Translations under genes and position numbers: made by a program
Assembly (NCBI GenBank): GCA_024275485.1
Contig: JAJRZA010000002.1
Coordinates: 1-64,000, forward strand
Origin: Candidatus Krumholzibacteriota bacterium
GTDB lineage: Bacteria; Krumholzibacteriota; Krumholzibacteriia; LZORAL124-64-63
Reading direction: 5' to 3'
DNA: 64,000 nucleotides
Shown: positions 5,007-25,269 of the stretch, one piece after another
Position numbering within the stretch: the first letter of the stretch is position 1
Layout of the letters: every line of letters starts with the position of its first letter
The notes under the pieces: generated by a model
What the model was told of the DNA's origin: nothing
Seen by the model: only the letters and a program-made list of their open reading frames with translations
Database searches by the model: none

Positions 5007-5018
5007 GGAAGGTTGCGA

Positions 5019-5546
5019 ATGTCCGGAATGTCCGAGAGCCTGAAGAATGCCCAGAGCGGCAAGAACTACTGGCGAAGCCTGCAGGAGCTGGCGGACACCG
5101 ATGAGTTCCGCGAACAACTGGATAACGAATTCCCGGGTGGAATCGATGCTCCCGTCAGTGGAATCAGCCGTCGTCGTTTTCTTCAGTTCATGTCCGCATC
5201 CATCGCCATGGTCTCTTTGGCGGGTTGTCGCTGGCCCGAAGAAAAGATCATGCCTTACGCTGCCCGTCCCGAGGGAGTCGATCCCGGAACTACTCGTAAG
5301 TTTGCCACCACCATGGAGTTGGGTTCTGTGCCTTTGGCTCTGTTGGCCACCAGTTATGATGGGCGGCCCATCAAAATCGACGGCAACCCCTCTTTCAGCC
5401 TGAGCCAGGGTGCCACCAACGCCTTTGCCCAGGCAAGCGTTCTCGATCTTTACGATCCCGCCCGAAGCCGAGGTCTCATTCAACGCAGTGGTGGGCGCGA
5501 AGCCAACCCGTCCTGGGAAGATTTTCTCGCCGCGGCCAAAACCTGA
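5019..5546 (+). CDS. actB: Alternative complex III iron-sulfur subunit ActB, N-terminal part (frameshifted)
   Basis: The first 175 residues of ActB. It opens with the usual ActB head (NYWRSLQELADTDEFREQL), then a twin-arginine export motif SRRRFLQFMSASIAMVSLAGC at about residues 48-68, then the start of the molybdopterin-oxidoreductase-like domain. The frame ends at a TGA (5544-5546) directly after ...FLAAAKT. One extra A in the AAAA run at 5538-5541 would give [22 protein letters not shown] and join the next frame without a break. The gene is therefore split by one missing base, either a read/assembly error in a homopolymer or a real mutation. ATG 5019 has GGGAAGG upstream. Confidence 0.85.
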   Translation: MSGMSESLKNAQSGKNYWRSLQELADTDEFREQLDNEFPGGIDAPVSGISRRRFLQFMSASIAMVSLAGCRWPEEKIMPYAARPEGVDPGTTRKFATTMELGSVPLALLATSYDGRPIKIDGNPSFSLSQGATNAFAQASVLDLYDPARSRGLIQRSGGREANPSWEDFLAAAKT

Positions 5547-5554
5547 AGCGTGGC

Positions 5555-8116
5555 ATGAAGAAGACGGCCATACTTACGGAGGTCACCACTTCGCCGGCCG
5601 TCTGGTACACCATGGGCCGGTTGGTCGGCAAGGGTGCCAGGATTTATTCCTGGGAAGCGGTGTGCCGGGTCAATGAGATCATGGGGGCCAAGATGGCCTT
5701 CGGGACTCCCGCCAAAACCCAACTGGACCTGACCACGGCCCAGGTGATCGTCGATTTCGATGCGAACATGATGCAGGACCATCCCTCCGCTCTACGCAAT
5801 GCTAGGGAGTTCGCCAGGGGTCGTCGCCCCGAGACGGGCCATATGAACCGGTTGTATTGCTACGAAAACAATTTTTCCGTGACCGGTGGTCAGGCTGATC
5901 ATCGTTTCCCCACCCCTGCCGGACAGATCGGTGCCGCTGTTTGGGCCCTGGCCGCTGAACTGGTTCTGGGTGAAGGGCTGCCACTGCCGGCGCAGGCAGG
6001 GTCCAGTCGTGGCGATCTGGCCAGGTGGCGTCACCATGCAACCGGCGGGAAACATGTGGCTGCTCTGGCCCAGGATCTGATGGCCAATCGTGGCCAAAGC
6101 CTGCTTTTGGCTGGTATGCGCCAACCGGCCGAGGTGCACGCCATGGTCTACAACCTGAACCAGGCTTTGGGCAACGCGGGCCGTTCCATCAGTTATCTCC
6201 CCATGCAAATGCCCGAGTTCCAGGACATCAGCAAGCTGGTGGACGATCTCAACTCCGGATCCATCGAAACCCTGGTGATGCTGGGCGGCAACCCCGTTTA
6301 TAACGCTCCTGAGGATCTCAAATTCGGCCAAGCCATGATGAAGGCAGCCAACCGGATTCATCTCAGTGATCAGGACAACGCGACTTCCCGGCAATGCACC
6401 TGGCACATTCCCAGGGCCCATTATCTGGAGAGCTGGGGCGACGCCGTGGGCTGGGACGGCACCTACATGGCCGTGCAACCGCTGATTCAACCCCTGTTCG
6501 GTGGCAAAACCGCCACTGAAGTATTGTCGGCGTTCAATTCCCGCAAGCCCAAAAACAGTTTCGACAAGGCCCGCTCATCCTTCTCCGTAATGACTGGTGG
6601 CTCACCGCGCACTCCCAAAAACGACGGGGCCTTTGAGAAGCGCTGGCGCAAGTTTATTCACGACGGGCATCTGGTCCTTGGTGGCGCAGCCAGTGCCGGG
6701 GCGTTGCCTTTGGCCGGCAATAGAATTGCCGCACCGTCCGGTGGACACTCCTTGTCGGTCGACAATCTGGAAATCAGCTTCGCCCTGGATCAGTCAGTGT
6801 ATGATGGCCGTTTCGCCAACAATGCCTGGTTGCAGGAACTGCCCGATTTCATGACCAAATTGACCTGGGACAACGCGGCCCTGATCAGCCCCGCCACCGC
6901 CCTTGAACTCGGAGTGGAACACGGGGATGTTGTGACCATGCAATACCAGGGCAACAGCATGGAGGCGGCTGTTTATGTGATGCCTGGCCATGCCAAGCAC
7001 TCGGTGACCGTCAATTTGGGTTACGGTTGCGATGAACTGGGTCCCATCGCCAAGGGTGCCGGTTTCAACTTCTACCAGTTGCGAACCTGGGACAACCTGG
7101 ACATGGGCCAGGGTCTCACAATCAGCAAGACCGGTGGCAAGTACACATTGGCCACCACCCAGGATCACCATGCCATCGACAACGCCGGCGCTGAAGAAAT
7201 CCAGAAACGTGTGCCCGGTTTGGTGCGCCAGGGAACCCTGGAGGATTACAAGAACCACCCCGAATTCGTGGATCATCTCGGCCTTCACCATCCGCCCCTG
7301 GAGTCTCTTTGGAAAGAGCACGAGTATCACGGTTACAAATGGGGCATGGCCATCGATTTGAATGTCTGCAATGGTTGTAATGCCTGCATCCTCGGCTGCC
7401 AGAGTGAAAACAATGTGGCGGTGGTGGGCAAGGATGAAGTTGCCCGGGGAAGGGAAATGAGCTGGCTGCGGTTGGATCGTTATTTCCTGGGCGACATGGA
7501 CGATCCCGAATGCTCCCAGCAACCGGTTGGTTGTGTGCAATGCGAGATGGCTCCCTGCGAGCAGGTTTGTCCCGTGGCCGCCACCATGCACACCGATGAA
7601 GGCCTCAACGCCATGGTTTACAACCGCTGCGTTGGAACTCGCTACTGCTCCAACAACTGCCCCTACAAGGTTCGTCGTTTCAACTGGTTCAATAACTTTG
7701 AAGACCTCACCGATGTGGAGCGTCTTGTTCTGAACCCGGATGTGACGGTTCGGGCTCGCGGTGTGATGGAGAAATGCAGCTACTGCGTGCAGCGCATTGA
7801 AGGGGCCCGGGTCCAGGCGAGGGTGGAAGGCCGCAAGATTCAGGACGGCGACATTACCCCGGCCTGCGCCGAAACCTGTCCAGTGGATGCCATCACTTTC
7901 GGCGATCTGAATGATTCCGAAAGCAGGGTCAGCAAGTTGCGCAAGGACAGCCGGGCCTACGACCTGCTCGGGTATCTGAACATCAAACCACGCACGTTTT
8001 ACATGGCCCGAATTCGTAACCCGAATTCCGCCATAGCTCCGGTCTCCAATGTTGGTGAGCATGGCAATGGGCACGAAGGTGGTCATGAAGAGGCCCAGGG
8101 GAATGCCCACGGGTAG
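5555..8116 (+). CDS. actB: Alternative complex III iron-sulfur subunit ActB, main part
   Basis: An 853-residue continuation of ActB in another frame. The molybdopterin-oxidoreductase-like region, which lacks a cofactor in known ACIII, runs to about residue 570. A ferredoxin-like part follows with Cys clusters [35 protein letters not shown] and CSYC...CAETC, enough for three [4Fe-4S] and one [3Fe-4S] centre as in known ACIII. With the upstream piece the total is about 1,030 residues, normal for ActB. The ATG at 5555 is probably only an internal Met of the unbroken gene. The protein sits on the periplasmic face and links quinol oxidation to ActA. A 132-base gap precedes actC. Confidence 0.92.
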
Positions 8117-8248: not shown

Positions 8249-9709
8249 ATGAAGCCGTCGGTCACCGACCTAAATGACAACACTGTGGACGACCCCACCC
8301 AGCCGGTGGAGTTGATTCTGGGAAACCAGGACTTCACGTCGATCACCGAGCAGGTCTCGGATATCGTCCTGGAGCACAAGACACCCAAAGCCTGGTATTT
8401 CGCCTTCGCGTTTTTTGCCGGTCTGACCGGCGTCCTGTTCCTGATGATCGCCTACCTGTTCATCACGGGTGTGGGTGTGTGGGGCTTGAACAACCCGGTC
8501 AGCTGGGGCTGGGCCATTGTGAATTTCGTGTTCTGGGTCGGAATCGGCCATGCGGGCACGTTGATCTCGGCCATCCTGTTTTTGCTGCGGCAGAAATGGC
8601 GCACCAGCATCAACCGTTTTGCAGAAGCCATGACGATTTTCGCCGTGATGTGTGCCGGTATCTTCCCGGGCATTCACGTGGGGCGTGTCTGGGTGGTCTA
8701 CTGGCTGTTTCCAATCCCCAATTACCAGTCCATGTGGCCCAACTTTCGCAGCCCCTTGTTGTGGGACGTGTTTGCGGTGGGAACCTACGCCCTCGTTTCA
8801 CTTCTGTTCTGGTACATGGGAATGGTGCCTGATCTGGCAACCTTCCGTGATCGGGCCAAAGGGCGAATTCAGCAAATTGTTTATGGAACTCTTTCATTGG
8901 GATGGCGGGGCAGTCATCGCCACTGGCACCGTTACGAAAAGGCCTACCTGCTGCTCGCCGGTTTGGCTACTCCGCTGGTGCTCTCGGTTCACTCCGTGGT
9001 GTCATTTGACTTTGCCACCGCGCAGCTGCCCGGTTGGCACACCACCATTTTCCCGCCCTACTTTGTGGCCGGAGCCGTGTTCTCCGGTTTTGCCATGGTG
9101 GGGACCATATTGATTCCCGCCCGCCAATGGTTCGGTTTGAAACACATCATCACGGTTCATCACCTTGAGAACATGAACAAGATCATTCTGGCTACCGGTA
9201 GCATGGTTGGTTTCGCCTACGCCACCGAGTTCTTCATCGCCTGGTACGGCGGCAATCCCTACGAGAGTTTTGCTTTCGTGAACCGTGCTTTTGGCCCTTA
9301 TGCCTGGGCCTACTGGATAATGGTCAGTTGCAACGTGATTACTCCCCAGCTGTTCTGGTCCAAGAAAATCCGCACCAATATCGGCATCATGTGGGTCATG
9401 TACATTTTTGTGAACATCGGTATGTGGTTCGAGCGCTTCGTAATCACCGTCACTTCGTTGAGTCGCGATTTCCTGCCCTCGTCCTGGGCCTACTACGATC
9501 CGACCATCGTCGATATCCTGACCTTCATGGGCAGCTTCGGTCTGTTCTTTACCATGATTCTGCTCTTCATCCGCTTCGCGCCCCTGATTGCCATGGCCGA
9601 AGTCAAAACAGTGATGCCAATTGCCGATGCCCATGGTGGCGAACGCCGCTCGGTGGGTGACTATCATGGCGATATACCCCGTGATGATATGAAAGGGGGA
9701 GACCACTAA
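8249..9709 (+). CDS. actC: Alternative complex III NrfD-like membrane subunit ActC
   Basis: A 486-residue NrfD/PsrC-family integral membrane protein with about ten hydrophobic helices, matching the usual ActC length. A polar head (about 50 residues) precedes the first helix at [20 protein letters not shown]. Typical family stretches include [20 protein letters not shown] and PGIHVGRVW. NrfD subunits carry the quinol site and are thought to contribute to proton movement in ACIII. GGAG lies before the ATG at 8249. The preceding 130 bases hold only a 17-codon frame and a repeated AGCCATTAGT. The stop overlaps the actD start (TAATG). Confidence 0.93.
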
Positions 9710-10281
9710 TGGCTTCAGAAATGGCTGCAAATATTAAAAAAGGGGCCCTTTACGGCCTGATGGTTGAATTCTCCGATGTACCCGATCTGGTGAAAGCCGT
9801 TGAAAAATGTCGTGATCAGGGATTCAAAAACTGGGATGTGCATACGCCGTTCCCGGTGCACGGCATGGATGCCGCCATGGGGCTCAAGGGAACCCAATTG
9901 CCATTCTTGATTCTGGCCGGCGGAGCCACTGGCCTGGGGTTGGCCACCTTGATGCAATGGTGGATGAACGCGGTGGATTATCCGTTCATCATTTCGGGTA
10001 AGCCTTTGTTCGGCATTCCGGCCAACATACCCATCATGTTCGAACTGACGGTGTTGCTTTCTGCTTTTACCGCTTTTTTCGGCATGTGGACACTCAATGG
10101 TTTGCCCCGGCTCTACCATCCCCTGTTCACCAATTTCCGTTTCCGAAGGGCAACCCAGGATCGATTCTTCATTGTTGTTGAAGCAAAGGATCCCAAGTTC
10201 CAGCTCGAGAAAACACGCGAATTCCTGGCCTCACTGGGCGGGAATGTGGTGGAAGAAGTCAACGAAAGTGCGGAGGACTGA
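9709..10281 (+). CDS. actD: Alternative complex III DUF3341 membrane subunit ActD
   Basis: A 190-residue DUF3341 protein. An N-terminal cytoplasmic domain (YGLMVEFSDVPDLVKAVEKC) is followed by two membrane helices at about residues 63-84 and 105-128 and a short C-terminal domain ending in a poorly conserved acidic tail. In ACIII structures this subunit packs against the ActC/ActF bundle and has no cofactor. The start overlaps the actC stop by one base, and actE begins three bases after the stop, so translation is coupled. Confidence 0.92.
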   Translation: MASEMAANIKKGALYGLMVEFSDVPDLVKAVEKCRDQGFKNWDVHTPFPVHGMDAAMGLKGTQLPFLILAGGATGLGLATLMQWWMNAVDYPFIISGKPLFGIPANIPIMFELTVLLSAFTAFFGMWTLNGLPRLYHPLFTNFRFRRATQDRFFIVVEAKDPKFQLEKTREFLASLGGNVVEEVNESAED

Positions 10282-10284
10282 CCG

Positions 10285-10950
10285 ATGCCGCGTCCGATTA
10301 TCTACGCCCTGCTCGTTCTGGTTGCATTGAGCCTGATTCCCATGGGAATGGTTTACAAATCGATGGCCACGCGGGGGAGAACAGATACCAGGATTCAGGT
10401 CGTTTACGACATGGATTCACAGTTCAGCTTCAAGGCCCAGCAGGAGAATCCCTTCTTTGCCGACGGTATGGCCATGCGGGGACAACCTGAAGGCACGGTG
10501 GCTCGGGGCTTTCTGCAGGAAAATCCCGTGCTCTTCACCGGCACCACCGATGGCGATACCATGTGGGTTGCCAATTCACCGCTGCCGCTCACCAATGAGG
10601 TGATGGACAGAGGGCAGGAACGGTTCAACATCTTCTGCGCCCCCTGTCATGGGGTAAGCGGCAACGGCAATGGTCCGGTGGATGTGCGGGCTGCCGCTTT
10701 GGGTGAGGGCACATGGGCTACACCCACGGATTTGGCGAGCCAGCCGGTGGCGGATCAACCCGCGGGCAAAATCTACAATACGATCAAGAACGGAATCCGG
10801 AACATGCCGGCCTACGCTGCGCAGATCAGTGCGGAAGACCGTTGGGCCATCGTGTCCTATGTGCGAGCCATTCAGGCCTCGCGCAATTTGAACATCGACG
10901 ACCTCCCTGAGGGCGTCCAGCAGGATGTTCGGCAAAAAGTCGGGCAATAA
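10285..10950 (+). CDS. actE: Alternative complex III monohaem cytochrome c subunit ActE
   Basis: A 221-residue protein with an N-terminal anchor (YALLVLVALSLIPMGMVY), a linker and one class I cytochrome c fold. The haem site is CAPCH at 118-122 and the likely axial Met lies in NMPAYAAQ. It is the haem c exit point for electrons leaving ACIII. A GGACTGACCG stretch precedes the ATG. The next gene, actF, starts 56 bases on. Confidence 0.92.
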   Translation: MPRPIIYALLVLVALSLIPMGMVYKSMATRGRTDTRIQVVYDMDSQFSFKAQQENPFFADGMAMRGQPEGTVARGFLQENPVLFTGTTDGDTMWVANSPLPLTNEVMDRGQERFNIFCAPCHGVSGNGNGPVDVRAAALGEGTWATPTDLASQPVADQPAGKIYNTIKNGIRNMPAYAAQISAEDRWAIVSYVRAIQASRNLNIDDLPEGVQQDVRQKVGQ

Positions 10951-11006: not shown

Positions 11007-12212
11007 TTGGCTCATCACGTTCCCAGCCTTGACGATACCAATACCACTTTGGATGGTCTTGGCTCGAAGATGTTCACCATCAGTGCAATCATCGGTGTGG
11101 TCGGTCTGGCCGCCACCGTCGGCCTGGGTGCTGCCGAAGGCGACGGCTTCCGTCATTTCGGTTTCAGTTATCTGGTGAATTTCGCCTTTTTCCTGGCTAT
11201 CAGTCTCGGGGCCTTGATTTTCCTGCCCATCAATTATCTGACCAAGGCCAGCTGGAGCATTGTGGTGCGCCGCATGGTCGAAGTCGTTGCCGCGGCCATG
11301 CCCATCCTGGCTGTACTGGCCATTCCCGTCATCTTCCTGGCGGGACAGGTTTATGGCTGGGCAACACCCGAAGCACGGGTCAGTCCTGCTTTGGCCCACA
11401 AGGCGGCCTTCCTCAGCAAAAACGCCTTCATCATGCGATGGATTTTCTACTTCGTCATCTGGACGGGGATGAGTTGGTTCTTCTGGCGCAACAGCGTCAA
11501 ACAGGATGCCGACGGCGATCTGAAGTTGACCCGCCGCCTGGAGAACTACAGCGGATTCTTCCTGATGGTCAGCGCCTTGAGCATTGCCCTGGCAGCTTTT
11601 GATTTGCTGATGAGTTTGGACTACGTCTGGTTCAGCACCATGTTCGGCGTGTATTATTGGGCGGGGGGATTTGTCACTTTCTTTGCCGTGCTGACCTTGA
11701 TGACCTTGGGCCTGCAGAACACTGGCCGTCTGACAAAAATCATCAGCCCCGAACACTTGCACGACTATGGCAAGTTGATGTTTGCATTCACGTTCTTCTG
11801 GGGCTACATCGCCTTCAGCCAGTACATGCTTTACTGGTATGCCAATGTACCTGAAGAAACCGTATGGTATTTGATCCGCTCGACCAACGGTTGGGGAATC
11901 GTGGGTTTTGTGACCCTGTTCGCAACATTCTGCCTGCCTTTCCTTGGATTGATTTCCCGGTATGCCAAGCGCAGTCGCAAAATCCTCGCCTTCTGGGCGG
12001 TTTGGATCATCATTGCCCAGTGGATCAACCTGTACTGGGTTGTGATGCCGGAATTCAGCGAAACCTTTACCATCGGCATCATGGACCTGACGGGGTTCCT
12101 GGGCGTCGGTGGGATCTGGATGGCTGGTATAGTCAAACTTGCCATGGGAGCCTCCCTGGTGCCGGTCAAAGACCCGCGCCTGGAAGATAGCCTGCGCTTC
12201 GAGAACGCTTAG
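11007..12212 (+). CDS. actF: Alternative complex III second NrfD-like membrane subunit ActF
   Basis: A 401-residue polytopic membrane protein related to ActC and NrfD. Ten hydrophobic helices are visible, from MFTISAIIGVVGLAATVGLG near residue 22 to the last near 370. ActF usually lacks the quinol-binding features of ActC and is proposed to take part in proton translocation. The start is a TTG at 11007 with GGGGAG six bases upstream. An overlapping ATG at 11002 is in another frame. It completes the canonical actABCDEF order and is followed within 35 bases by a small membrane protein. Confidence 0.92.
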   Translation: MAHHVPSLDDTNTTLDGLGSKMFTISAIIGVVGLAATVGLGAAEGDGFRHFGFSYLVNFAFFLAISLGALIFLPINYLTKASWSIVVRRMVEVVAAAMPILAVLAIPVIFLAGQVYGWATPEARVSPALAHKAAFLSKNAFIMRWIFYFVIWTGMSWFFWRNSVKQDADGDLKLTRRLENYSGFFLMVSALSIALAAFDLLMSLDYVWFSTMFGVYYWAGGFVTFFAVLTLMTLGLQNTGRLTKIISPEHLHDYGKLMFAFTFFWGYIAFSQYMLYWYANVPEETVWYLIRSTNGWGIVGFVTLFATFCLPFLGLISRYAKRSRKILAFWAVWIIIAQWINLYWVVMPEFSETFTIGIMDLTGFLGVGGIWMAGIVKLAMGASLVPVKDPRLEDSLRFENA

Positions 12213-12247
12213 ATCATTTGAAAATGCGACCTGATCAGGAGATGACC

Positions 12248-12550
12248 ATGGCTGAAGCCGCAAAGAAGAACAATTCAGGGTTCAACACACCGGCAGTGGT
12301 GATGAGCACTCTCGCGGTCCTGCTCTTCGTCTACGCCCTCTCACTGTTTTTGCAGGGCGGATTCAACAAAGCCTATGACCTGGAATACCAGGCCAAGGTG
12401 TTGAACACCGAAGGGAGAGCGACCGCCGAAGCATTGGCTAAGCAGCAGGCGATTCTGGATGCAGGATATCGCTGGGTGGATAAAGCAGGTGGCAGGGTTG
12501 GTTTGCCCATAGAGGACGCCAAAGCCCTGGTGGTGAACCGGGTCCGGTAA
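12248..12550 (+). CDS. Small single-helix membrane protein linking act and cox-like genes
   Basis: A 100-residue protein with a short polar N-terminus, one helix (VVMSTLAVLLFVYALSLFLQ, about residues 17-37) and an outer-face tail containing YRWVDKAGGRVGLPIEDAKAL. From family memory, a similar tail (Tyr-x-Trp-Val-Asp then Ile/Leu-Pro-Ile) occurs in small proteins encoded near SCO-type or cytochrome oxidase genes in ACIII clusters; I cannot name it. Its place between actF and subunit II suggests an assembly or accessory subunit. CAGGAG precedes the ATG at 12248 by eight bases. Confidence 0.7.
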   Translation: MAEAAKKNNSGFNTPAVVMSTLAVLLFVYALSLFLQGGFNKAYDLEYQAKVLNTEGRATAEALAKQQAILDAGYRWVDKAGGRVGLPIEDAKALVVNRVR

Positions 12551-12694
12551 ACGACTCGGGTTTGAACCCAAACGACCAGTTGATGAATTGATGACCAGTT
12601 TCCAGGCTGATGACCAGACCGGTTGCCGGAATACGGCGGCCCGAAAGGAATCATGATTTTGAGTGGAGCAATACCTTTCGTGGGAGCGGGCAAG

Positions 12695-13648
12695 ATGTCC
12701 GCATGGTTCCCCCCGGATGCCTCCTTTCTCGCCAGTGAGATGGACAGGGCCTTTTTCGGCATCTACGTGGCTGCGGCTTTTGCCGTGGTGCTTGTTGTCG
12801 GTTTGGCATTTGTCTACATCATGCAGTATCGGCGCAAGGATGAGGGCGATAAGGCGTTTCCAACCGGGAAGGCCAATATCCTCTTCCAGACCATTTGGGT
12901 GCTGGCGGCGGTGGGATTGGCGGTTTATGCCTTCGGCCTGGATTTCTGTGGTTACATGGACCGGCAGGTGGCACCGGGTAATGCCCTGCAAATCCAGGTT
13001 ACCGCGCGTCAGTGGGACTTCGATTTTGCCTATCCCAACGGCTATGTCGCAGATACCCTGCATGTGGTGGTGGGGCAGCCCGTTCAGTTGAACATTCATT
13101 CCGAAGACGTGATTCATTCCCTGACCATCCCCGCCCTGCGTCTGAATCAGGCTGCATTGCCGGGACAGCAGACCACCGCCTGGTTTCAAGCCGATCGTCC
13201 CGATACCTATGATGTACGAAGTAATATTTACAGTGGTGATGGTTTCCCCGAGATGCAAACAGCCTTGGTAACCCACACCGCCGCTGATTACAAGGCATGG
13301 ATGGCTACGGTCACGGATATCTTTGCCGGCAAAACCATGGAAGAAGTGGGCGAGTTGCTCTACAACAAGCAAGGTTGCAAGGCTTGTCACAGCCTCGATG
13401 GGAGCAAACTGGTTGGGCCTTCATTCAAGGATCTCTACGGAAATACTTTCGATACCAAGGAAGGTGTCCGGATTGTGGCCGACGACGCCTACATCAAGGA
13501 ATCGATTCTCACTCCCAACGTTTCGGTCATCGCCGGGTTCGAGCCCGTCATGACGCCTTACGCCGGGAAGCTGGACGACAAGGAAATCGAGGCCATCACC
13601 GCCTGGTTGAAGAGCATGTCCCAATTTGGCCAGCAGGAGGGCAATTAA
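12695..13648 (+). CDS. coxB: Cytochrome oxidase subunit II homologue with haem c, CuA ligands lost
   Basis: A 317-residue caa3-type subunit II: two membrane helices (about 20-42 and 63-83), a cupredoxin domain (about 95-200) and a C-terminal cytochrome c with CKACH at 228-232 and axial Met286. The cupredoxin keeps His141 (DVIHS) and Met187. The canonical Cys-x-Glu-x-Cys-x3-His segment reads SNIYSGDGFPEM (176-187), so both Cys, the Glu and the His are Ser, Ile, Ser and Phe. A CuA centre cannot form. The alignment is gapless and the rest of the fold is intact, so this is not a frameshift. ATG 12695 with GGGAGCGGG upstream matches the normal subunit II start; 12653 is an alternative. Confidence 0.88.
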   Translation: MSAWFPPDASFLASEMDRAFFGIYVAAAFAVVLVVGLAFVYIMQYRRKDEGDKAFPTGKANILFQTIWVLAAVGLAVYAFGLDFCGYMDRQVAPGNALQIQVTARQWDFDFAYPNGYVADTLHVVVGQPVQLNIHSEDVIHSLTIPALRLNQAALPGQQTTAWFQADRPDTYDVRSNIYSGDGFPEMQTALVTHTAADYKAWMATVTDIFAGKTMEEVGELLYNKQGCKACHSLDGSKLVGPSFKDLYGNTFDTKEGVRIVADDAYIKESILTPNVSVIAGFEPVMTPYAGKLDDKEIEAITAWLKSMSQFGQQEGN

Positions 13649-15208
13649 ATGAGTAGCAGCACCACTTATCTCGCTGACGGCGAGGGCCTGGGCGGCTGGT
13701 TCTCCACCTTCGATCACAAGAAGATCGCCTGGATGTTTCTGGGCTGGACCATGGGTTTGTTCCTCTGCGGAGGAATACTGGCCGGATATTTCAAGCTGAT
13801 GTCCTTTTTGGGCATGGATGTGGATCAGGCGACCTTGGACCGGATGCTCACCTACCACGGTGTCATCATGGTTTTTATGTTCCTGGTACCGTTGATCCCT
13901 TCGGTGTTGGGTTTCTTCCTGTTGCCATTGCAATTGGGAGCCAGGGAGATGGCTCTACCCGGCCTTTCCCGCTTCAGTCTGCGGTTTTATGTTGCGGGTG
14001 TCATCCTGATGTTGGCTTCCCTGGTCGTCTGCCCGGTGGGCACGGGTTGGACCTTCGCCACCCCCTATTCCCTGATAGACGGTGGTGCCTTTTTGCTGCT
14101 GGCCCTGGGAATGATGTCCATGGCTTTGAGTTGGGTCTCCACGGGAGTCAACTTCCTGATCACCGTGCACCAGAAACGGACTGAAGGCATGGGCTTTTTC
14201 GATATGCCTATTCTGGCCTGGTCGCTTTACCTGACAGCTTATGTACTGCTGGCCTCGGGAATTTTGCTGGCCATTGTCATCATGTACCTTGCTGCGGCCG
14301 AAGCCACGGGGCGTGGGCTGTTCAGTGGCCTGAACAATCCTCTGGATTGGCAGAACTATTTCTGGTTCATCACCACACCGGCGGCCTTCTTCGCCATCAT
14401 TCCAGCCATGGGCGTGATCACCGAAGTCATCGCCGGGATCAGTCGCAAGGCCGTGACCGGATACCGCACGGTGGTGGGGTCGCTGATCGCCTTGCTGGCC
14501 ATCAGCTTTGTCTCCTGGGGTGTGCATCTCACCGGCCAGGGACAGGACGCGGCCCTCAGCTTTACCTTTGCGGTACTCTCGCTGCTGGCGGTGGTGCCGG
14601 TGGCCCTGATAGTCTACAGTTGGCTGGCCACCTTGAATCGTGGGGCCATTCTTTGCGGAGCTCCCACCACCTACGTGATAGCCTTTTTGTTGAACGGCGG
14701 CATTGGCGCCATGCTGGGGCTTTTCCTGGTGAATATGTCCGTGGGTGACTATCTGGCTGCCACACTGTTCACCACCGCTCATCTGCATTATCTGATGATG
14801 GGTGGTGTGATGGGAGCCATGCTGGCCGGGCTTTACTACTGGTGGCCGAAATTCACCGGTCGCCTCTACAACCAAAACCTGGGCCGCCTGGGTGCCGCCT
14901 TGTATATGATTGGTCTGAACCTGGCCTTCTTCCCCCAGATTATCATGGGAGCAAAGGGTTTGGCCCAGGGCTCTCACCTGGTTCCGGCTGATTTGGTCGG
15001 CCTTCAAAGTCTCTCCCTGACGGGGATGGCCATCCTGGTGTCAGGTCTGTGCATCGCCCTGATCAACCTGTTGACTTCGCTGACCAGCGGACCGGTTGCC
15101 CCGGCCAACCCATGGGGCGCCTCCACCTTGGAATGGCAAACGGATTCCCCTCCGCCCGAAGGAAATTTTAAAACTCTCCCGGAAGGGAAGAACCCGTATT
15201 TGTGCTAA
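13649..15208 (+). CDS. coxA: Haem-copper oxidase subunit I homologue lacking the CuB site
   Basis: A 519-residue, 12-helix member of the haem-copper oxidase superfamily that starts FSTFDHKKI, as subunit I does. The haem ligands are kept: His70 (TYHGV), His378 and His380 (AHLHY). The catalytic metal site is not. GHPEVY reads TTPAAF (242-247), losing a CuB His and the cross-linking Tyr. WAHH reads WGVH (290-293), losing a second CuB His. The K-channel Lys is Ile321 and the Mg-site His-Asp is Ala370-Ala371. O2 reduction by the usual chemistry is therefore improbable. AGGAGG precedes the ATG. No subunit III, IV, Sco, CtaG or haem A synthase gene lies here. Confidence 0.9.
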   Translation: MSSSTTYLADGEGLGGWFSTFDHKKIAWMFLGWTMGLFLCGGILAGYFKLMSFLGMDVDQATLDRMLTYHGVIMVFMFLVPLIPSVLGFFLLPLQLGAREMALPGLSRFSLRFYVAGVILMLASLVVCPVGTGWTFATPYSLIDGGAFLLLALGMMSMALSWVSTGVNFLITVHQKRTEGMGFFDMPILAWSLYLTAYVLLASGILLAIVIMYLAAAEATGRGLFSGLNNPLDWQNYFWFITTPAAFFAIIPAMGVITEVIAGISRKAVTGYRTVVGSLIALLAISFVSWGVHLTGQGQDAALSFTFAVLSLLAVVPVALIVYSWLATLNRGAILCGAPTTYVIAFLLNGGIGAMLGLFLVNMSVGDYLAATLFTTAHLHYLMMGGVMGAMLAGLYYWWPKFTGRLYNQNLGRLGAALYMIGLNLAFFPQIIMGAKGLAQGSHLVPADLVGLQSLSLTGMAILVSGLCIALINLLTSLTSGPVAPANPWGASTLEWQTDSPPPEGNFKTLPEGKNPYLC

Positions 15209-15491: not shown

Positions 15492-17786
15492 ATGAAGTTC
15501 TATTCCAGGCTAGGGGGTGCCTTGCTGCTGGTAGCTTTGGTTAGCATGATGATCAGCAGCTTCGCTTTTGCAGAGTCAAAACTTCAGAAAGTCATGAAGG
15601 AACGCGGCTTGACCGAAAAAGACGTTTTGGCCGCCGCCAAGACCTACGTTCCCACAGGTGGCCGCGACGAGTACATCGTCTGCAGTTCCGGTGGCCAGAG
15701 TGGTCATGTTATTTTCTACGGAATTCCTTCCATGCGCATTTTGAAGTACGTTGCCGTTTTTACTCCCGAGCCCTGGCAGGGTTACGGTTTTGATGATGAG
15801 TCCAAGGCTGTCTTGGCACAGGGTCGCATTCAAGGCAAAGACATCGTTTTTGGTGATACTCACCACCCCGCCTTCTCGGAAACGGACGGCGACTACAACG
15901 GCCGGTACGTCTTCATCAATGACAAGGCCAATCCCCGTCTGGCGGTAATTGACCTGCACGACTTCGAGACCAAGCAGATCGTGGCCAACCCCTTCTTCCG
16001 GTCCGCTCACGGCGGCTGCTTCGTCACACCGAACACCGAGTACGTCATGGAAGCCAGTCAGTACGCGGCCCCCTACAAGGACGAATTCGTGCCCCTGAAT
16101 GATTTCAACGACGAATATCGTGGTGGACTGACCTATTGGAAATTCAACATGGATTCCGGGCGTCTCGAACCTGAAAACTCCTTCACCTTCGAAATGCCCC
16201 CCTACAGCCAGGATCTTTGTGATGCCGGCAAGGGCCCGAGTTACGGTTGGGGTTTCACCAACTCCTTCTGCACCGAGCGTTATGTTGGTGGGATCGAAAA
16301 GGGTCGTCCCCCCTACGAAGCCGGTTGCTCCTCCAAGGACACCGACTTCATGCACGTGACCAACTGGAAAAAGGCCGAGGAACTGGTCAAGGCCGGCAAG
16401 GTCACGAAGGTCAACGGGGCTTACCTGATCACCATGGAGCAGGCCATCAAGGAAGAGCTGATGTTCCTGATTCCCGAGCCCAAAAGCCCTCACGGTGTCG
16501 ATGTCACTCCCGACGGCCTTCATATCCTGGTCGCCGGCAAGTTGGACAGCCACGCCTGGGTCTACAGCTTCGAAAAGATCATGAAAGCCATCAAGGACAA
16601 GAACTTTGAGGGCACGGATCCCTACGGTCTGCCAATCATCTCCCTGGATACCGCCCTGGAGCGCTCGGTCAACGTTGGCCTGGGCCCCCTGCACAACCAG
16701 TTTGATTCCGTGGATGGCGTGGTCTACACCTCCATTTACGTGGATTCGCAGATCACCAAGTGGAATTACAAGACCGGTAAGATCCTCGACACCCTTCCCA
16801 TCCATTACAACGTTGGTCACCTCATGACCATGGAAGGTGATACCAAGCACCCCGACGGGAAGTATCTTGTTGCCCTGAACAAGCTGTCCATCGACCGCTT
16901 CAACCCGGTTGGACCTCTGCATCCCCAGAACCATCAGCTGATCGATATCAGCGGTGCCCAGATGGAACTGCTGTACGACATGCCGTTGCCTTTGGGCGAG
17001 CCCCACTATGCCGTAGCCATCAAGGCCGATAAGCTGCAACCTACTGTTCGCTACAAGACCGGTTGGAACAGTCGTAAGGATGAGAAGAGTCCGTTCCGAT
17101 GCCGCGCCGGCCGCGAAAAGGTTGTTCGTGAGGGAAACAAGGTCGATATCTACGGAACGCTTATTCGTTCCCACATCACACCCGAGACCATCGAAGTCTA
17201 CGAGGGTGACACGGTTTCTATTCACCTGACCAACCTCGAGCGGGCCCAGGACGAAGTCCACGGATTTGCCATGTACGGCCACAACGTGCAGCTGTCCATT
17301 GAACCCGGCAAGACCGCTTCGGCCACCTTCACGGTGGATAAAGCCGGTGTGTATCCCTACTATTGCACCGAATTCTGCTCGGCGTTGCACCTTGAGATGC
17401 AGGGTTACATGCTGGTCATGCCCAAGGGCTACAAGCCTCAGGATGCGGCCATTATCGATGGTGAGAAATATACCAAGGCCGACTACGAAGCCCAGGTTGC
17501 CACCAACATTGCCACCCAGGATGTCATCAACCAGGTGGTGGGCTTCATCACCAGCCACAATTACAAGGATTTCCCCATCGTGGTTTCTCTCGTGGAAGAT
17601 GCCACCGATCAGCTTGGTTTTGCCGAAGAAGCCAAAACCAAATCCGAAGTGGCCGCCGCCGAGGGTGATTTCCAGAACGCCATGCTCTGGGCCAACCAAT
17701 GGTGGCAGTATCAGGTCAAGACCGCCGACCTTGGTTTGCGGGCCAAGACCCACCTCGAGCAAAATGGTGCCAAAAAGGTTAAGTAA
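15492..17786 (+). CDS. nosZ: Clade II nitrous oxide reductase
   Basis: A 764-residue periplasmic enzyme reducing N2O to N2. A Sec signal (about residues 1-27, no twin Arg) marks it as clade II. The seven CuZ histidines are visible in DTHHP (124/125), SAHGG (173), MHVTNW (288), SPHG (334), LHNQF (401), NVGHL (443) and EPHY (505). The cupredoxin domain keeps the complete CuA set: His590, Cys625, Cys629, His633 and Met636 (CTEFCSALHLEM). After the CuA domain comes an extra helical tail of about 115 residues (650-764), without a haem motif, that most NosZ lack. AGGAGG precedes the ATG. Two cytochrome genes follow, the likely direct electron donors. Confidence 0.97.
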   Translation: MKFYSRLGGALLLVALVSMMISSFAFAESKLQKVMKERGLTEKDVLAAAKTYVPTGGRDEYIVCSSGGQSGHVIFYGIPSMRILKYVAVFTPEPWQGYGFDDESKAVLAQGRIQGKDIVFGDTHHPAFSETDGDYNGRYVFINDKANPRLAVIDLHDFETKQIVANPFFRSAHGGCFVTPNTEYVMEASQYAAPYKDEFVPLNDFNDEYRGGLTYWKFNMDSGRLEPENSFTFEMPPYSQDLCDAGKGPSYGWGFTNSFCTERYVGGIEKGRPPYEAGCSSKDTDFMHVTNWKKAEELVKAGKVTKVNGAYLITMEQAIKEELMFLIPEPKSPHGVDVTPDGLHILVAGKLDSHAWVYSFEKIMKAIKDKNFEGTDPYGLPIISLDTALERSVNVGLGPLHNQFDSVDGVVYTSIYVDSQITKWNYKTGKILDTLPIHYNVGHLMTMEGDTKHPDGKYLVALNKLSIDRFNPVGPLHPQNHQLIDISGAQMELLYDMPLPLGEPHYAVAIKADKLQPTVRYKTGWNSRKDEKSPFRCRAGREKVVREGNKVDIYGTLIRSHITPETIEVYEGDTVSIHLTNLERAQDEVHGFAMYGHNVQLSIEPGKTASATFTVDKAGVYPYYCTEFCSALHLEMQGYMLVMPKGYKPQDAAIIDGEKYTKADYEAQVATNIATQDVINQVVGFITSHNYKDFPIVVSLVEDATDQLGFAEEAKTKSEVAAAEGDFQNAMLWANQWWQYQVKTADLGLRAKTHLEQNGAKKVK

Positions 17787-17928: not shown

Positions 17929-18627
17929 ATGAAATTTTTCCTGAAAACGACCAACCTTTCCCTGCTTTTGCTGGCCTTGACTACCTTGGCTTCCTGCACT
18001 TGCGGTGACCGGGAGGAACGCCAGGCTGCGGCTCGCGAACGTCAGGGCATGATCCTGGCCAATACGGTCGAAGTTGTTCAGGAATCCGAAGGTGCTCGTC
18101 TCTATCGTGAGAAAACCTGCAACACCTGCCATGGCCAGAACGGCATCAAGCCTCTTCTGCCCAGTTATCCTGTGATCGCCCAGCAGGGTGAGCAGTACGC
18201 CCTTCAGCAAATGTTGGACATCAAGAGCGGTGCTCGGTCCGCGGGGCAGTCAGCTGCCATGAAACCCATCGTCCAGGATGTGACAGACGAAGAATTCGCC
18301 ATCCTGGCAACATTTATCGCCACGGAACTGGGTCAGGGCAAGGCCATCGGTGGCGGCAATCCCGATGAGAATTCCCCGGGGGGGAAACTTTTCAAATCCA
18401 AAACCTGTGTGGCATGCCATGGCAAAGACGGCAAAACACCTATCCTAAAGGCATACCCCAAGATCGCAGGACATGGCGCCGAATATGCCAAGCTGCAAAT
18501 GCTGGACATCAAACACGGCAAGCGGGACAACAGCAAGGCTGTGCTGGGTATGAAGGGTATCATGCACCTGGTTTCCGAAGAGGAAATCGCTCTGCTGGCT
18601 GATTACATTGCTTCGTTGCCCCGGTAA
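17929..18627 (+). CDS. Dihaem cytochrome c lipoprotein of the nos cluster
   Basis: A 232-residue protein with two tandem cytochrome c domains resembling cytochrome c4: CNTCH at 64-68 and CVACH at 160-164. Each is followed by a similar pattern (YALQQMLDIKSGAR and YAKLQMLDIKHGKR) and an axial Met. A lipobox (LASC, Cys23) tethers it to the membrane facing the periplasm. It occupies the place of NosC1 in the Wolinella-type nos cluster, where the cytochromes are monohaem. It is a likely relay from the quinol-oxidising Fe-S proteins or ACIII/pseudo-oxidase to NosZ. CGGAGG precedes the ATG. Confidence 0.88.
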   Translation: MKFFLKTTNLSLLLLALTTLASCTCGDREERQAAARERQGMILANTVEVVQESEGARLYREKTCNTCHGQNGIKPLLPSYPVIAQQGEQYALQQMLDIKSGARSAGQSAAMKPIVQDVTDEEFAILATFIATELGQGKAIGGGNPDENSPGGKLFKSKTCVACHGKDGKTPILKAYPKIAGHGAEYAKLQMLDIKHGKRDNSKAVLGMKGIMHLVSEEEIALLADYIASLPR

Positions 18628-18672
18628 TTGCAGTCCAGCCAACGAAATGTTTTTGTTCGTTAGACAGAAATG

Positions 18673-18690
18673 GGCTTCGTGCGCGAAGCC
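18673..18690 (+). other. Short hairpin between the two cytochrome genes
   Basis: GGCTTCG (18673-18679) pairs with CGAAGCC (18684-18690) around TGCG. It lies just upstream of the GAGGAG ribosome site of the second cytochrome and may tune its translation. Confidence 0.4.
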
Positions 18691-18712
18691 TGACCAACCC
18701 CGAGGAGATGTC

Positions 18713-19432
18713 ATGAAGAAGATCTGGATGATCAACGCCCTATTGGTCATGATTCTGGCCGCTTCGGTCGGCCTGGCCGAAGATCCCGTCTGGAACGCCG
18801 AAGGTGGTGAAAAAGAAGAAGCCATGCACCTGGAACCCAATCTGGAAAATGGTCGCGACGTTTATGAAGTATGCGCCGCTTGTCACCTGACCGAAGGTTG
18901 GGGCACCAAGGAAGGCACCTTTCCGCAATTGGCCGGGCAGCATGTCCGGGTGGCCATCAAGCAGTTGGCTGATATCCGCGCCTTGAATAGGGATAACCCC
19001 ACCATGTATCCTTTCGCACTACCAGAAGCCATTGGTGGGCCACAGTCTCTGGCTGATGTCTCAGCTTACATTGCCCAGTTGCCCATGAATCCGGACAACG
19101 GCAAAGGTGTGGGAGAAGTTGGCAGCCCTGAGTTCGAAAAAGGCAAAAAGCTTTATGCTGACAACTGCACCGAGTGCCACGGCCTAACTGGTTATGGAAT
19201 TGAAGAGAAATTCTTCCCCCGCATCCAGGGCCAGCACTACAACTACATGCTGCGTCAGTTCGAGTGGATCCGCGACGGCAAGCGCCGCAACGCCAACCCC
19301 GACATGGTCAAGCAGATCGTCGGTTTCAGCGATGAAGACATGCGCAACGTGATCAACTACGTTTCCCGCATTGAGGTGCCCAAAGAAGACCTGGCTCCTT
19401 CGGTTGATTGGCTGAACCCGGACTTCGACTAG
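18713..19432 (+). CDS. Second dihaem cytochrome c of the nos cluster
   Basis: A 239-residue exported protein with a clear Sec signal (LLVMILAASVGLA, cut near residue 22) and two haem motifs, CAACH at 54-58 and CTECH at 152-156, again cytochrome c4-like (FPQLAGQH and FFPRIQGQHYNYMLRQFEWI). It is soluble in the periplasm, unlike the lipoprotein upstream. It corresponds by position to NosC2. ATG 18713 follows GAGGAG; a longer frame starting upstream would hide the signal peptide. Confidence 0.88.
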   Translation: MKKIWMINALLVMILAASVGLAEDPVWNAEGGEKEEAMHLEPNLENGRDVYEVCAACHLTEGWGTKEGTFPQLAGQHVRVAIKQLADIRALNRDNPTMYPFALPEAIGGPQSLADVSAYIAQLPMNPDNGKGVGEVGSPEFEKGKKLYADNCTECHGLTGYGIEEKFFPRIQGQHYNYMLRQFEWIRDGKRRNANPDMVKQIVGFSDEDMRNVINYVSRIEVPKEDLAPSVDWLNPDFD

Positions 19433-19536
19433 ACATCCCCTGGGCCGGGTTGCCAATGCGCCGACCCGGCCTCTTGGCTTTTTCCATGGAATCAGGCTTT
19501 TTCGTCCTTGGTGGAAGAAGGAAGAAGGGTATAGGA

Positions 19537-20832
19537 ATGAACGCGAAAAGCGGCAAAATGATTCTCAGCAGCATACTGATCGTGATGGCGATCGGTTTGC
19601 TTTTTCCCATATACAACGCACCTGTTTGGTGGGTCTCCCTTGAGGCGCCACAGTATCCGAAAGAAGCTTTTCCTGACGGTGTCCGCATTCTCTTTCACCT
19701 GAATGGAGTTTTCAGCGGCTGCGAAAAAGTGGAGAAAACTGAAATTACCGAAGACGAAGCCCTCGACTGTGTGCACGAAATGGATACCATCAATCATTAT
19801 GTGGGGATGTATCCCATCGCCTCGGGCGGTCCGGTGGAATTGTTCTTCTCCATCTTTTTGCTGGCCCTGGTCGGGGTCATGTTGTTGGCTTACATGTGCG
19901 TGAGGCCCCTCATAAGAACCGGCATCATGGTGGTGGGTTTTGGCGCCCTGGCGGTATTCATGGGCATGTCCTGGTTGGGCAACGACGGCTTGAATCTGCT
20001 CAGCAACAATTACCTCAATGGCCGCATCACCGTCATCGGTGAAGAAGCCTCCGATGTGAATGACAAGGCAGCCTCTGCCACCGATGAGCAGCTGGCTTCT
20101 CTGAAAGCTGCTTTGGGTGAAGGCGGAGTTGATTTGCCTGAGGGCGTGGATGCCCTGGCGGCTCTGAAGGCTTCCCAGGCCGGTGAAGACGTTGAAGTGG
20201 CTGAAATTGACGAATCCGCATCCGCCGATGAATCCGCCCCAACTCAAGACGAAGCACAGTCGGGAAATTCCACCTCCAATATGTCAGGCAAGGATCTTAG
20301 CATTGCCTACTTTGAGGAAGCGTTCACCGAGTATCAAAAACGGTTTCCCGATGGGGGCGAAGAATGGAACGGCAGTGGGATTCAATTTCTTCCTTGGCAC
20401 TATGAAAAGAGCCTTGGCAAGTACTTCCGTGACCAGGCTGTGCTGGCACCAATGGTGGCCAAAATCAAGACTGCCGGGAACATTGTTTTCTGGGGTTTGC
20501 TGGTGATCATGGTTTTCCTTGTGGTGATGGCTCGCAAGCCCCAAGGCATCTTCAACTGGACGTTGATTCTGGTTCCCATGGGTCTTCCGGTGTACTTCAT
20601 CATAGAATACGTGTCCTGGTTGTGGTGGTACGGCCATAACATGAGCACAATGGGGGCTTTCAGCCTCAAGCCTTTCACACCCACCGCCTTTGGTCAGGGT
20701 AAAGTCGCCCAGTTCACCACCAACTCGTATCCCGACACCGGGTTCTGGTTGATCGTGTTGTTCGCGGTGCTCCTGGGTGTGGCGGCTTATTTGCGCAAAC
20801 AGGAACAAGATAGTGCTGAAACCAACCAATAG
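19537..20832 (+). CDS. NosB-like polytopic membrane protein of the nos cluster
   Basis: A 431-residue protein. One helix near residue 10-28 is followed by an outer loop with APQYPKEAF and NHYVGMYPI, a pattern I associate with membrane proteins of clade II nos clusters. Two more helices (about 100-122 and 128-147) follow. An acidic, Ala/Ser-rich insert (about 168-250) precedes a conserved WNGSGIQFLPWHYEKSLGKYF segment and about three C-terminal helices. Its position just before nosD matches nosB of Wolinella. The assignment is by position and topology, not a firm family match. GGAAGAAGGG precedes the ATG. Confidence 0.6.
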   Translation: MNAKSGKMILSSILIVMAIGLLFPIYNAPVWWVSLEAPQYPKEAFPDGVRILFHLNGVFSGCEKVEKTEITEDEALDCVHEMDTINHYVGMYPIASGGPVELFFSIFLLALVGVMLLAYMCVRPLIRTGIMVVGFGALAVFMGMSWLGNDGLNLLSNNYLNGRITVIGEEASDVNDKAASATDEQLASLKAALGEGGVDLPEGVDALAALKASQAGEDVEVAEIDESASADESAPTQDEAQSGNSTSNMSGKDLSIAYFEEAFTEYQKRFPDGGEEWNGSGIQFLPWHYEKSLGKYFRDQAVLAPMVAKIKTAGNIVFWGLLVIMVFLVVMARKPQGIFNWTLILVPMGLPVYFIIEYVSWLWWYGHNMSTMGAFSLKPFTPTAFGQGKVAQFTTNSYPDTGFWLIVLFAVLLGVAAYLRKQEQDSAETNQ

Positions 20833-22126
20833 CCTTCTGCCTGGAATACTTATTCTGGGTTTGTTGATAAGTCTGCCATCGATGGCATCGGCAGGCTTAC
20901 CGTCTTTTCAGGCACTCGTGGATGCAACCGAAGAAAACGGCACCCTAACACCGGAGGCGGGAACTTACGCCGGCCCGGTTTATATCGATTTTCCCATCAC
21001 CATCGACGGCTCAGCCGGTGTGACCATCGATGCCCAGGGCAAGGGCTCGGTCGTCTACCTGGAGAGCGATGGCGTCACCCTCAAGAATTTGCGCCTGATC
21101 AACTCGGGTAATTCCCACAATGATTTGGATTCCGGCGTCCAGGTGCGCGGCAATTTCAACATCATCAGGGATTGTGAAATCCTCAACTGCCTCTTCGGTA
21201 TTGATTTGCAGCAGTGCGAATTCTGCATCGTCAAGCGCAACAAGATCAACAGCAAGGACAAGGATCTGGGGCAGCGGGGCGACTCGGTGCGGCTTTGGTA
21301 CAGCTTCCACAACAAGGTCCAGGACAACGAGTGTTTTGATACCCGTGATATGGTGGTATGGTACAGCTCGAACAATGAAATCACCGGTAACACCGGCAGG
21401 AACAGTCGTTACTCCCTGCACTTCATGTATTCCAAATTCAACCTGGTGGAGAACAACAGCTACTTCAACAATACGGTGGGCATTTTTCTGATGTACAGCG
21501 ACGGTCTTGTGATTCGCAACAACATCATTGCCCACGCGGCGGGGCCCACGGGTATCGGCATCGGCTTCAAGGAAACCAGCGAGTTGATCATCGACGGCAA
21601 TACGGTGATGTACTGCGCCAGCGGTTTTTATATCGATGTCTCACCCTACCAGCCGGACACCATCAATCATTTCGAAAACAATATTTTGGCCTACAACGGT
21701 ATCGGTATTCGCTTCCTGAACGATTGGACGGGCAGCTGGTTCATGGACAACCAGTTTATCGACAACCTGACGCAGATTTTTGTGGGAGGCGGCAAGACCG
21801 CCAATCGAAACGTCTGGGAAGGCAACTACTGGAGCGACTACACCGGATTCGATCTGGACAAGGACGGGGTGGGCGATACACCCCACGAAATTTATTCCTA
21901 CGCAGATCGGATTTGGCGCGACAGTCCCTATTGCCAGTTTTTCAAGGGCTCCCCTTTGCTGGAAACCCTGGATTTTCTGGAGCGGCTGGTGCCCTTATCC
22001 GAACCGGATCTTCTGATCCGGGACAAGGCGCCGCTAATGCGGAAGGAGGAGGCGAGGACAATCCTGAAATTGGAGTCGGAAAATATTCTGGATCTTTTGT
22101 CCTCGGTTGATGATGGGAAACACTGA
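20813..22126 (+). CDS. nosD: NosD copper-site maturation protein
   Basis: A 437-residue periplasmic right-handed beta-helix protein (CASH/parallel beta-helix repeats from about residue 45 to 350, many NN- and GN-turns) needed with NosF and NosY to assemble CuZ in NosZ. Family features are DSVRLWYSF, DMVVWYSS, SLHFMYS and the C-terminal WEGNYWSDYTGFDLDKDGVGD. The signal peptide is LLPGILILGLLISLPSMASA. The best start is a GTG at 20813 with AGGAA upstream, overlapping the preceding gene by 20 bases. A closely related second NosD lies downstream on the other strand. Confidence 0.92.
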   Translation: MLKPTNSLLPGILILGLLISLPSMASAGLPSFQALVDATEENGTLTPEAGTYAGPVYIDFPITIDGSAGVTIDAQGKGSVVYLESDGVTLKNLRLINSGNSHNDLDSGVQVRGNFNIIRDCEILNCLFGIDLQQCEFCIVKRNKINSKDKDLGQRGDSVRLWYSFHNKVQDNECFDTRDMVVWYSSNNEITGNTGRNSRYSLHFMYSKFNLVENNSYFNNTVGIFLMYSDGLVIRNNIIAHAAGPTGIGIGFKETSELIIDGNTVMYCASGFYIDVSPYQPDTINHFENNILAYNGIGIRFLNDWTGSWFMDNQFIDNLTQIFVGGGKTANRNVWEGNYWSDYTGFDLDKDGVGDTPHEIYSYADRIWRDSPYCQFFKGSPLLETLDFLERLVPLSEPDLLIRDKAPLMRKEEARTILKLESENILDLLSSVDDGKH

Positions 22127-22961
22127 TAAAAAAGCGGCTAAAAAAGCGAACCCCAGAGGACGCCGGGAATTCCTGCGCACCATTGCCATGACAGCCGGTT
22201 TGGCCGGCGCGGCCATGCTGGGTCTTGTGCCCGTGGTTCGAGGGTGGGTCAACCGACAACGCCCCCCGGGAGCACTGGCGGAAAAAGAGTTTCTTGCTTC
22301 CTGTATCAAGTGTGGCCAGTGCGTTCAGGTGTGTCCTGTGGAAGCCATCCACCTGGCCGATATTGACGATGGTTTTGGTGTGGGCACCCCCTTTATCGAC
22401 TCGCGTAAACAGGCCTGTGATTTTTCCTGTGACGGTTTGCAGTGTGTTCTGGCCTGTCCCACCGGAGCCCTGACCCACCAAATCAATTATTCTCACCAAT
22501 CGGATATGGCCACGGCGGTTGTTGTTCGGCCGGACAAGTGTTTGGCCGTGCGTGGCAAAGGTTTCAAAGGATTGGCTCGTGGAGCCGATTTCAAGGGTAA
22601 GCTGCGCTTCGACCATATCGATCGCTGGAATCCACAGAATTTGAACGATCACCGATTCGACCTGGAACTGTGCGATCTGTGTGTGCGGCAGTGTCCCATC
22701 GAAATCCGCATCTCCCAGTGCGAAGCAGGGAATCCCCCTTCGGGCGATGAAAACCAGTGTCCCCCCCTGCCCGCGATCCGGTTGGTGGAAACAGGTGAAT
22801 TCGAAGGACGCAAAACCTTTGCGCCCGAAATCCTGGCTGGTTGTGTTGGCTGTGGTGTCTGCGAAATGATCTGTCCGGTGGAACCGGCGGTTATCGTGAT
22901 GGACAGCAGCGTGCGGGGCGAACCCATCAAGGTTCGTGTCGGAAATGGGGTGACCTCATGA
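22110..22961 (+). CDS. nosG: NosG/NapG-type ferredoxin
   Basis: A 283-residue exported ferredoxin with a twin-arginine motif RRREFLRTIAM near residues 17-27 and four [4Fe-4S] sites: CIKCGQCVQVCP, the CDFSC...CVLACP pair, CDLCVRQCP and CVGCGVCEMICP. In Wolinella-type clusters NosG works with the membrane protein NosH as a menaquinol dehydrogenase feeding cytochromes and NosZ. It overlaps the nosD end by 17 bases. The ribosome site is weak, so translation is probably coupled. Two adjacent ATGs (22110 and 22113) are both possible. Confidence 0.9.
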   Translation: MMGNTDKKAAKKANPRGRREFLRTIAMTAGLAGAAMLGLVPVVRGWVNRQRPPGALAEKEFLASCIKCGQCVQVCPVEAIHLADIDDGFGVGTPFIDSRKQACDFSCDGLQCVLACPTGALTHQINYSHQSDMATAVVVRPDKCLAVRGKGFKGLARGADFKGKLRFDHIDRWNPQNLNDHRFDLELCDLCVRQCPIEIRISQCEAGNPPSGDENQCPPLPAIRLVETGEFEGRKTFAPEILAGCVGCGVCEMICPVEPAVIVMDSSVRGEPIKVRVGNGVTS

Positions 22962-25250: not shown

Positions 25251-25269
25251 CGAAGGGTTGGATAGGCCG

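Follow-up and report, generated by a model that had tools for sequence, protein, structure and literature searches.

A haem-copper oxidase subunit I without its CuB site as a candidate membrane anchor for a cytochrome c of the alternative complex III operon in Krumholzibacteriia

A 64,000-nucleotide stretch of DNA from a Candidatus Krumholzibacteriota bacterium (the window) carries an operon for alternative complex III (ACIII) that ends in two oxidase genes, pseudo-cox2 and pseudo-cox1, whose products have lost their CuA and CuB sites, respectively. We propose, with a probability of about 0.6, that this de-metallated caa3 module now serves to anchor in the membrane a cytochrome c carrying electrons from ACIII. 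The genes in this part of the window are arranged as follows.

4296..5006, + strand: ActA, pentahaem cytochrome with five CxxCH motifs (profile match and motif count)
5013..8116, + strand: ActB, interrupted near 5546 by a frame change in this assembly
8249..9709, + strand: ActC, NrfD family (profile match)
9709..10281, + strand: ActD, PF11821 (profile match)
10285..10950, + strand: ActE, monohaem cytochrome c (profile match and motif)
11007..12212, + strand: ActF (operon position and homology between operons)
12218..12550, + strand: small one-helix ORF between actF and cox2 (operon comparison)
12623..13648, + strand: pseudo-Cox2, CuA lost, C-terminal fused cytochrome c (CxxCH) kept
13649..15208, + strand: pseudo-Cox1, 519 aa (sequence comparison and AlphaFold model)
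15492..17786, + strand: NosZ, nitrous oxide reductase of the Sec-dependent type (clade II; TIGR04246 score 855 bits, cut-off 625)
17929..18627, + strand: dihaem cytochrome c, NosC1-like
18608..19432, + strand: dihaem cytochrome c, NosC2-like
19408..26097, + strand: rest of the nos cluster
from 19408, + strand: NosB-like (position only)
from 20777, + strand: NosD (TIGR04247)
from 22107 and from 22841, + strand: NosG-like and NosH-like Fe-S proteins
about 23900-26097, + strand: NosF/NosL/NosY-like (position and sequence only)

The complex encoded upstream is recognisable as ACIII, with ActA to ActF all present and ActB frame-broken in the assembly. The frame change in actB may be real or an assembly error; in a relative (L043), ActB is a single unbroken ORF of 1034 aa. 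The small ORF at 12218..12550 has conserved counterparts in the pseudo operons and also in the family's canonical operons. Where the nos cluster ends, the opposite strand encodes another NosD-like protein with a beta-helix, recognised from its sequence (26150-27376, -).

Pseudo-Cox1 matches the COX1 family PF00115 at 271 bits (cut-off 34.8), and its closest solved structures are subunits I of caa3/aa3 oxidases (2yev, E=4e-69; 1occ, 2e-49). The AlphaFold model has a pTM of 0.83 and a TM score of about 0.9 against solved COX1 structures. The score against TIGR02891 is 378 bits, below the cut-off of 671, while a canonical relative (L053) reaches 685. Residues were called from an alignment to 37 canonical relatives, with bovine subunit I numbering given for the equivalents. 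All three haem-ligand histidines are kept in the window protein (His70, His378 and His380 for bovine H61, H376 and H378), and H291 of the CuB site is retained as His293. The other two CuB ligands are replaced (H240 by Thr243, H290 by Val292), as are the cross-linked tyrosine (Y244 by Phe247), the K-channel lysine (K319 by Ile321) and the Mg site (H368/D369 by Ala370/Ala371). The canonical relatives keep the catalytic and haem residues in all 37 cases, with threonine at the Mg-site histidine in one of them. The first-pass annotation, made from the sequence of the window, had described a haem-copper oxidase subunit I that lacks the CuB site; the family match and the alignment agree with this and with each of these substitutions, and the subunit is full-length. 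It had also counted the glutamate of the GHPEVY motif as lost. This residue is already absent from the canonical relatives, which are of the A2 type with the motif YSHPAVY, so that its absence is ancestral and lies outside the loss; the E242/GHPEVY comparison was therefore rejected. Its statement that the rest of the protein is well conserved needs qualification, as 39 residues that are invariant among canonical relatives are gone across the pseudo-Cox1 clade, including the D-channel aspartate (position 100) and the haem-propionate arginine pair (440/441). Together with Lys321, the loss of Asp100 removes the D and K proton channel positions clade-wide. Judged from its sequence, pseudo-Cox1 is catalytically dead, the whole active site being gone, in line with the earlier suggestion that it is neither an oxidase nor an NO reductase.

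That pseudo-Cox1 is instead a working reductase of NO or N2O whose metal site is unusual, with, for example, a single metal bound by His293 and other residues, appears scarcely credible. The window protein does keep both His293 and His378, and nosZ adjoins the gene. Yet the alignment yields no set of second-metal ligands at the CuB position, where His293 is the single possible ligand, and His293 and His378 are not kept together across the clade. Moreover, no NorB family is found among the NCBIfam profile matches, and a dedicated NosZ is already present. A sequencing or assembly error as the cause of the CuB loss was rejected as well, since 26 further genomes carry homologues without CuB, the closest being 92% identical with a dN/dS of 0.067.

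The losses extend to subunit II. Of the CuA ligand set (two Cys, two His, one Met and one Glu), the window pseudo-Cox2 has lost both cysteines, the glutamate and one histidine, with Cys, Glu, Cys and His replaced by Ser, Ile, Ser and Phe. Both CuA cysteines are absent from all 21 pseudo-Cox2 proteins examined, and the CxxCH motif of the fused cytochrome c is retained in every one of them. The nearest solved structure to the cytochrome domain is 1w2l, which is annotated as a cytochrome oxidase subunit II. In oxidase structures, CuA lies about 20 A from haem a, and the cytochrome c haem is located on the far side of CuA. With CuA absent, the cytochrome c domain is thus left without a known path into subunit I.

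This bears directly on the reading offered by the first-pass annotation, in which subunit I passes electrons between two low-spin haems a without performing chemistry. The retention of His70, His378 and His380 in the window genus, of His70 and His380 in all covered members outside one haem-less sub-clade, and the strong constraint on the gene would all fit such a relay. Nevertheless, the loss of CuA, the entry point for electrons into subunit I, in 21/21 proteins makes it unlikely, and so do the lack of a haem A synthase, the missing propionate arginine pair and the variation of the haem ligands among the relatives.

CuB is absent from all members of the clade, and the haem sites differ between them. 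Among the 16 members outside the haem-less sub-clade, every sequence that covers the positions has His70 and His380, and this conservation suggests that haem matters in these proteins. Five of the 16 have another residue in place of the haem a3 ligand His378. The haem-less sub-clade comprises 11 members (support 100/99); His378 and His380 are missing from all of them and His70 from most. These eleven retain no haem ligand bar the occasional His70, and their genes are still constrained, which speaks against a function in haem-to-haem transfer common to the clade. Four residues are fixed or nearly so in the sub-clade (R71 in 10/10, D/N380 in 11/11, W384 in 11/11 and D441 in 10/11), at or adjoining the sites that bind the haem ligands or propionates. 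From their positions in the sequence, Arg71, Asp380 and Trp384 may replace haem as the tie between helices II and X. Structure prediction for one haem-less member from six sequences reached a pLDDT of 49, too low for a usable model. A correlation between haem ligands and nosZ was sought among the clade genomes and none was found: haem-less members occur in genomes with a linked nosZ (G011, G013 and G030), and members with haem ligands occur in genomes without this nosZ (G024 and G031).

The cofactor genes were compared between genomes with canonical and with pseudo operons. Of 15 genomes whose canonical cox1 belongs to the ACIII-linked lineage, 14 encode haem A synthase (PF02628), and the fifteenth is 75% complete; the synthase was not found in any of the 25 pseudo-oxidase genomes scanned. 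Any haem in pseudo-Cox1 would consequently be haem b. Since the absence of CtaA tracks a single clade origin, it may reflect one event rather than 25 independent ones. Haem O synthase (TIGR01473, above cut-off) shows nearly the same split, and in many pseudo genomes weaker matches adjoin the genes of a second A-type oxidase. Where this second oxidase exists, a haem A synthase of divergent sequence may be present. Nine pseudo genomes have neither a second A-type oxidase nor a good match to haem O synthase, and in these no other protein is known that such a divergent synthase would supply. Two loci (L120 and L121) encode a canonical A-type oxidase (SCO1-cox1-cox3-cox2-ctaB-like), and no haem A synthase is recognisable in their genomes; these oxidases may work with haem o or depend on a synthase that escapes recognition.

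In the genome of the window, the only other complete haem-copper oxidase subunit I is of the cbb3 type. A second A-type locus is found there (L160, G000:C99, 9934-11751) with SCO1, a ctaB-like gene and most of cox2. Its cox1 covers only about the first 87 residues and is joined directly to cox2, and cox3 is missing; the truncation may be a deletion or an assembly error, and G001 and G003 have this type of oxidase locus whole. Cytochrome b of the bc1 complex was looked for in the window genus and not found, leaving ACIII as the sole recognised quinol:cytochrome c enzyme.

Homologues were scanned for in one genome per species (GTDB 220) and in all 80 genomes covered for the phylum. CuB-less homologues were found only in Krumholzibacteriia and in MAGs matching Krumholzibacteriia, although the GTDB scan used two short peptide patterns, so that distant CuB-less members elsewhere could be missed. 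The one exception is a record under the title Verrucomicrobia, with a copy similar to the Krumholzibacteriia ones. In the phylogenetic tree, the CuB-less Cox1 proteins of 27 genomes form one clade (27 rows, support 100/100), as the first-pass annotation had asked to be checked. The ACIII proteins of 15 pseudo operons likewise form one clade (SH-aLRT 100), nested within the canonical ACIII of Krumholzibacteriia, and the same nested placement is not rejected by the Cox1 data (AU p=0.23). The pseudo-cox module therefore most likely arose once and in place, inside Krumholzibacteriia, from the oxidase of a working ACIII operon.

The stem branch of the pseudo-Cox1 clade is long (0.9), and three residues absent from canonical relatives (W162, G204 and F248) are fixed in 27/27 members, the haem-less ones included; Y368 is also new to the clade and fixed in nearly all members. 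Such features could be expected of a neofunctionalised enzyme or transporter, for example one with ion or proton conductance, quinone binding or a sensory role, that is unrelated to the tethered cytochrome. This explanation is nonetheless improbable, because the D-channel aspartate and K-channel lysine positions are lost, no new conserved cluster of catalytic appearance is seen, and the neighbouring genes hint at no substrate.

Selection on the gene, as had been proposed from the sequence of the window, is supported by dN/dS values of 0.064-0.067 for pseudo-Cox1 pairs within the window genus. Values are 0.087-0.295 for other pairs with haem ligands and 0.090-0.245 for haem-less pairs, so that all ten pseudo pairs fall within 0.064-0.295, compared with 0.117-0.213 for canonical ACIII-linked pairs; estimates for pairs with dS above 1.2 are approximate. 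These low ratios and the open reading frames speak against chance or decay. A decaying remnant, in which an oxidase is being lost and its gene persists as a passenger of the operon, would account for the successive disappearance of metal sites, SCO1, COX3 and the genes for haem synthesis, and for the faster change of pseudo-Cox1 relative to its ACIII. It is very unlikely, given that the homologous frames are long and open, with single stops just at the edges of some matches, that dN/dS stays well below 1 even in haem-less members, and that CxxCH is never lost. Of the earlier interpretation, the view of a selected protein that belongs to one clade and is not an oxidase or NO reductase thus stands, whereas the relay through haems a is not supported.

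The operon context separates the two kinds of locus further. SCO1 lies between actF and cox2 in 17/17 canonical ACIII loci, and COX3 follows cox1 in 14/17, the remaining three stretches stopping at or near cox1; in the 18 pseudo loci checked, neither gene was found. ACIII is encoded immediately upstream of pseudo-cox in 19 of the 22 genomes in which the upstream genes are covered. In two of the exceptions (G016 and G025) the homologues sit with nosZ, away from ACIII, and in the third (G077) the pseudo-cox pair (L158, 7394-10029, -) is apart from both. G077 also has a canonical ACIII-oxidase operon elsewhere. Sec-type nosZ (76% identity or more) adjoins or is linked to pseudo-cox in all 13 genomes that carry it, lying directly downstream in eleven, upstream of actA in G041, and at a second pseudo-cox1 fragment in G013. 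This fragment (G013:C143, 4-468) is separate from the other pseudo-cox operon of G013, which accompanies ACIII. The predicted location beside act and nos genes was hence borne out, with act upstream in 19/22 and nos often present. Twelve pseudo genomes contain no nosZ of this type, which implies that NosZ is not the sole partner; in G009 (L112, 356-10580), the genes after the pseudo-cox operon encode a dihaem cytochrome c and narGHJI-like products. An additional NosC2-like cytochrome (29% identity) is encoded between pseudo-cox1 and nosZ in haem-less members (L113, 8113-8754; L046, 11718-12326).

The cytochrome domain and the fold are never lost, and the link to ACIII nearly always persists, so an anchor or docking scaffold is the simplest account. 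The pair encoded at 12623-15208 would be a de-metallated caa3 module, unable to reduce O2 or NO or to pump protons, in which the fold of subunit I holds the fused cytochrome c domain of subunit II at the membrane and in position. ACIII would oxidise quinol and pass the electrons via its haems to the tethered cytochrome c, from which they could reach periplasmic cytochromes c and then NosZ. In one relative they could go on to nitrate reductase, and a probable further acceptor is the cbb3 oxidase, whose genes lie elsewhere in the genome. In the window clade, His70 and His380 of subunit I probably still bind a single low-spin haem, of type b rather than a, and in the haem-less sub-clade, where this haem is gone, the Arg71/Asp380/Trp384 set may stand in for it. 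The weakest step is the putative physical complex with ACIII. In the ACIII supercomplex of Flavobacterium, contact with the oxidase runs through subunit III (PMC8361435), and with subunit III lost here, the old contact would be unusable and a new one needed. A fuller version of the proposal, tentative and somewhat short of even odds, is that a haem-copper oxidase pseudoenzyme is now a permanent part of a respiratory quinol:cytochrome c complex serving N2O and other N-oxides, with the haem exchanged in the sub-clade for an Arg-Asp pair and a Trp filler.

A lineage whose oxidase lacks its active site and both copper centres, and in places every haem ligand, yet remains selected would set the structural role of an oxidase in a supercomplex apart from its chemistry, and would reveal a route for rewiring an O2 chain to N2O respiration. 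For genome annotation, reading a Pfam COX1 match as an aerobic aa3 oxidase is wrong for these genomes. A literature search, in which subscription journals were mostly uncovered, found no description of such a dead oxidase.

A close known counterpart is the A2-type caa3/aa3 oxidase associated with ACIII, encoded in the same order (actABCDEF-cox2-cox1) in Krumholzibacteriia (G007), Acidobacteria and Balneolota; further examples of ACIII are known from Flavobacterium and Rhodothermus. Both systems share the fold of subunit I and the cytochrome c fused to subunit II, but the pseudo module lacks CuA, CuB, the tyrosine, the K- and D-channel residues and the Mg site, as well as SCO1, COX3 and haem A synthase. 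The cNOR and qNOR enzymes and the NO reductases with altered sites are likewise members of the haem-copper superfamily without the CuB site; they keep a metal at this site, whereas pseudo-Cox1 has no ligands for a second metal. The nos genes correspond to a clade II cluster with the NosC/NosG/NosH electron-transfer module, sharing the Sec-type NosZ, two dihaem cytochromes, NosD and Fe-S proteins in the same order. They differ in following immediately on an ACIII operon whose last genes encode a dead oxidase, and in that no bc1 cytochrome b was found in the genome. The proposed function would most resemble that of cytochrome cy-type carriers, in which a membrane-anchored cytochrome c connects a quinol-oxidising complex to an acceptor. 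Cytochrome cy has a one-helix anchor, whereas here the anchor would consist of oxidase subunit I together with subunit II.
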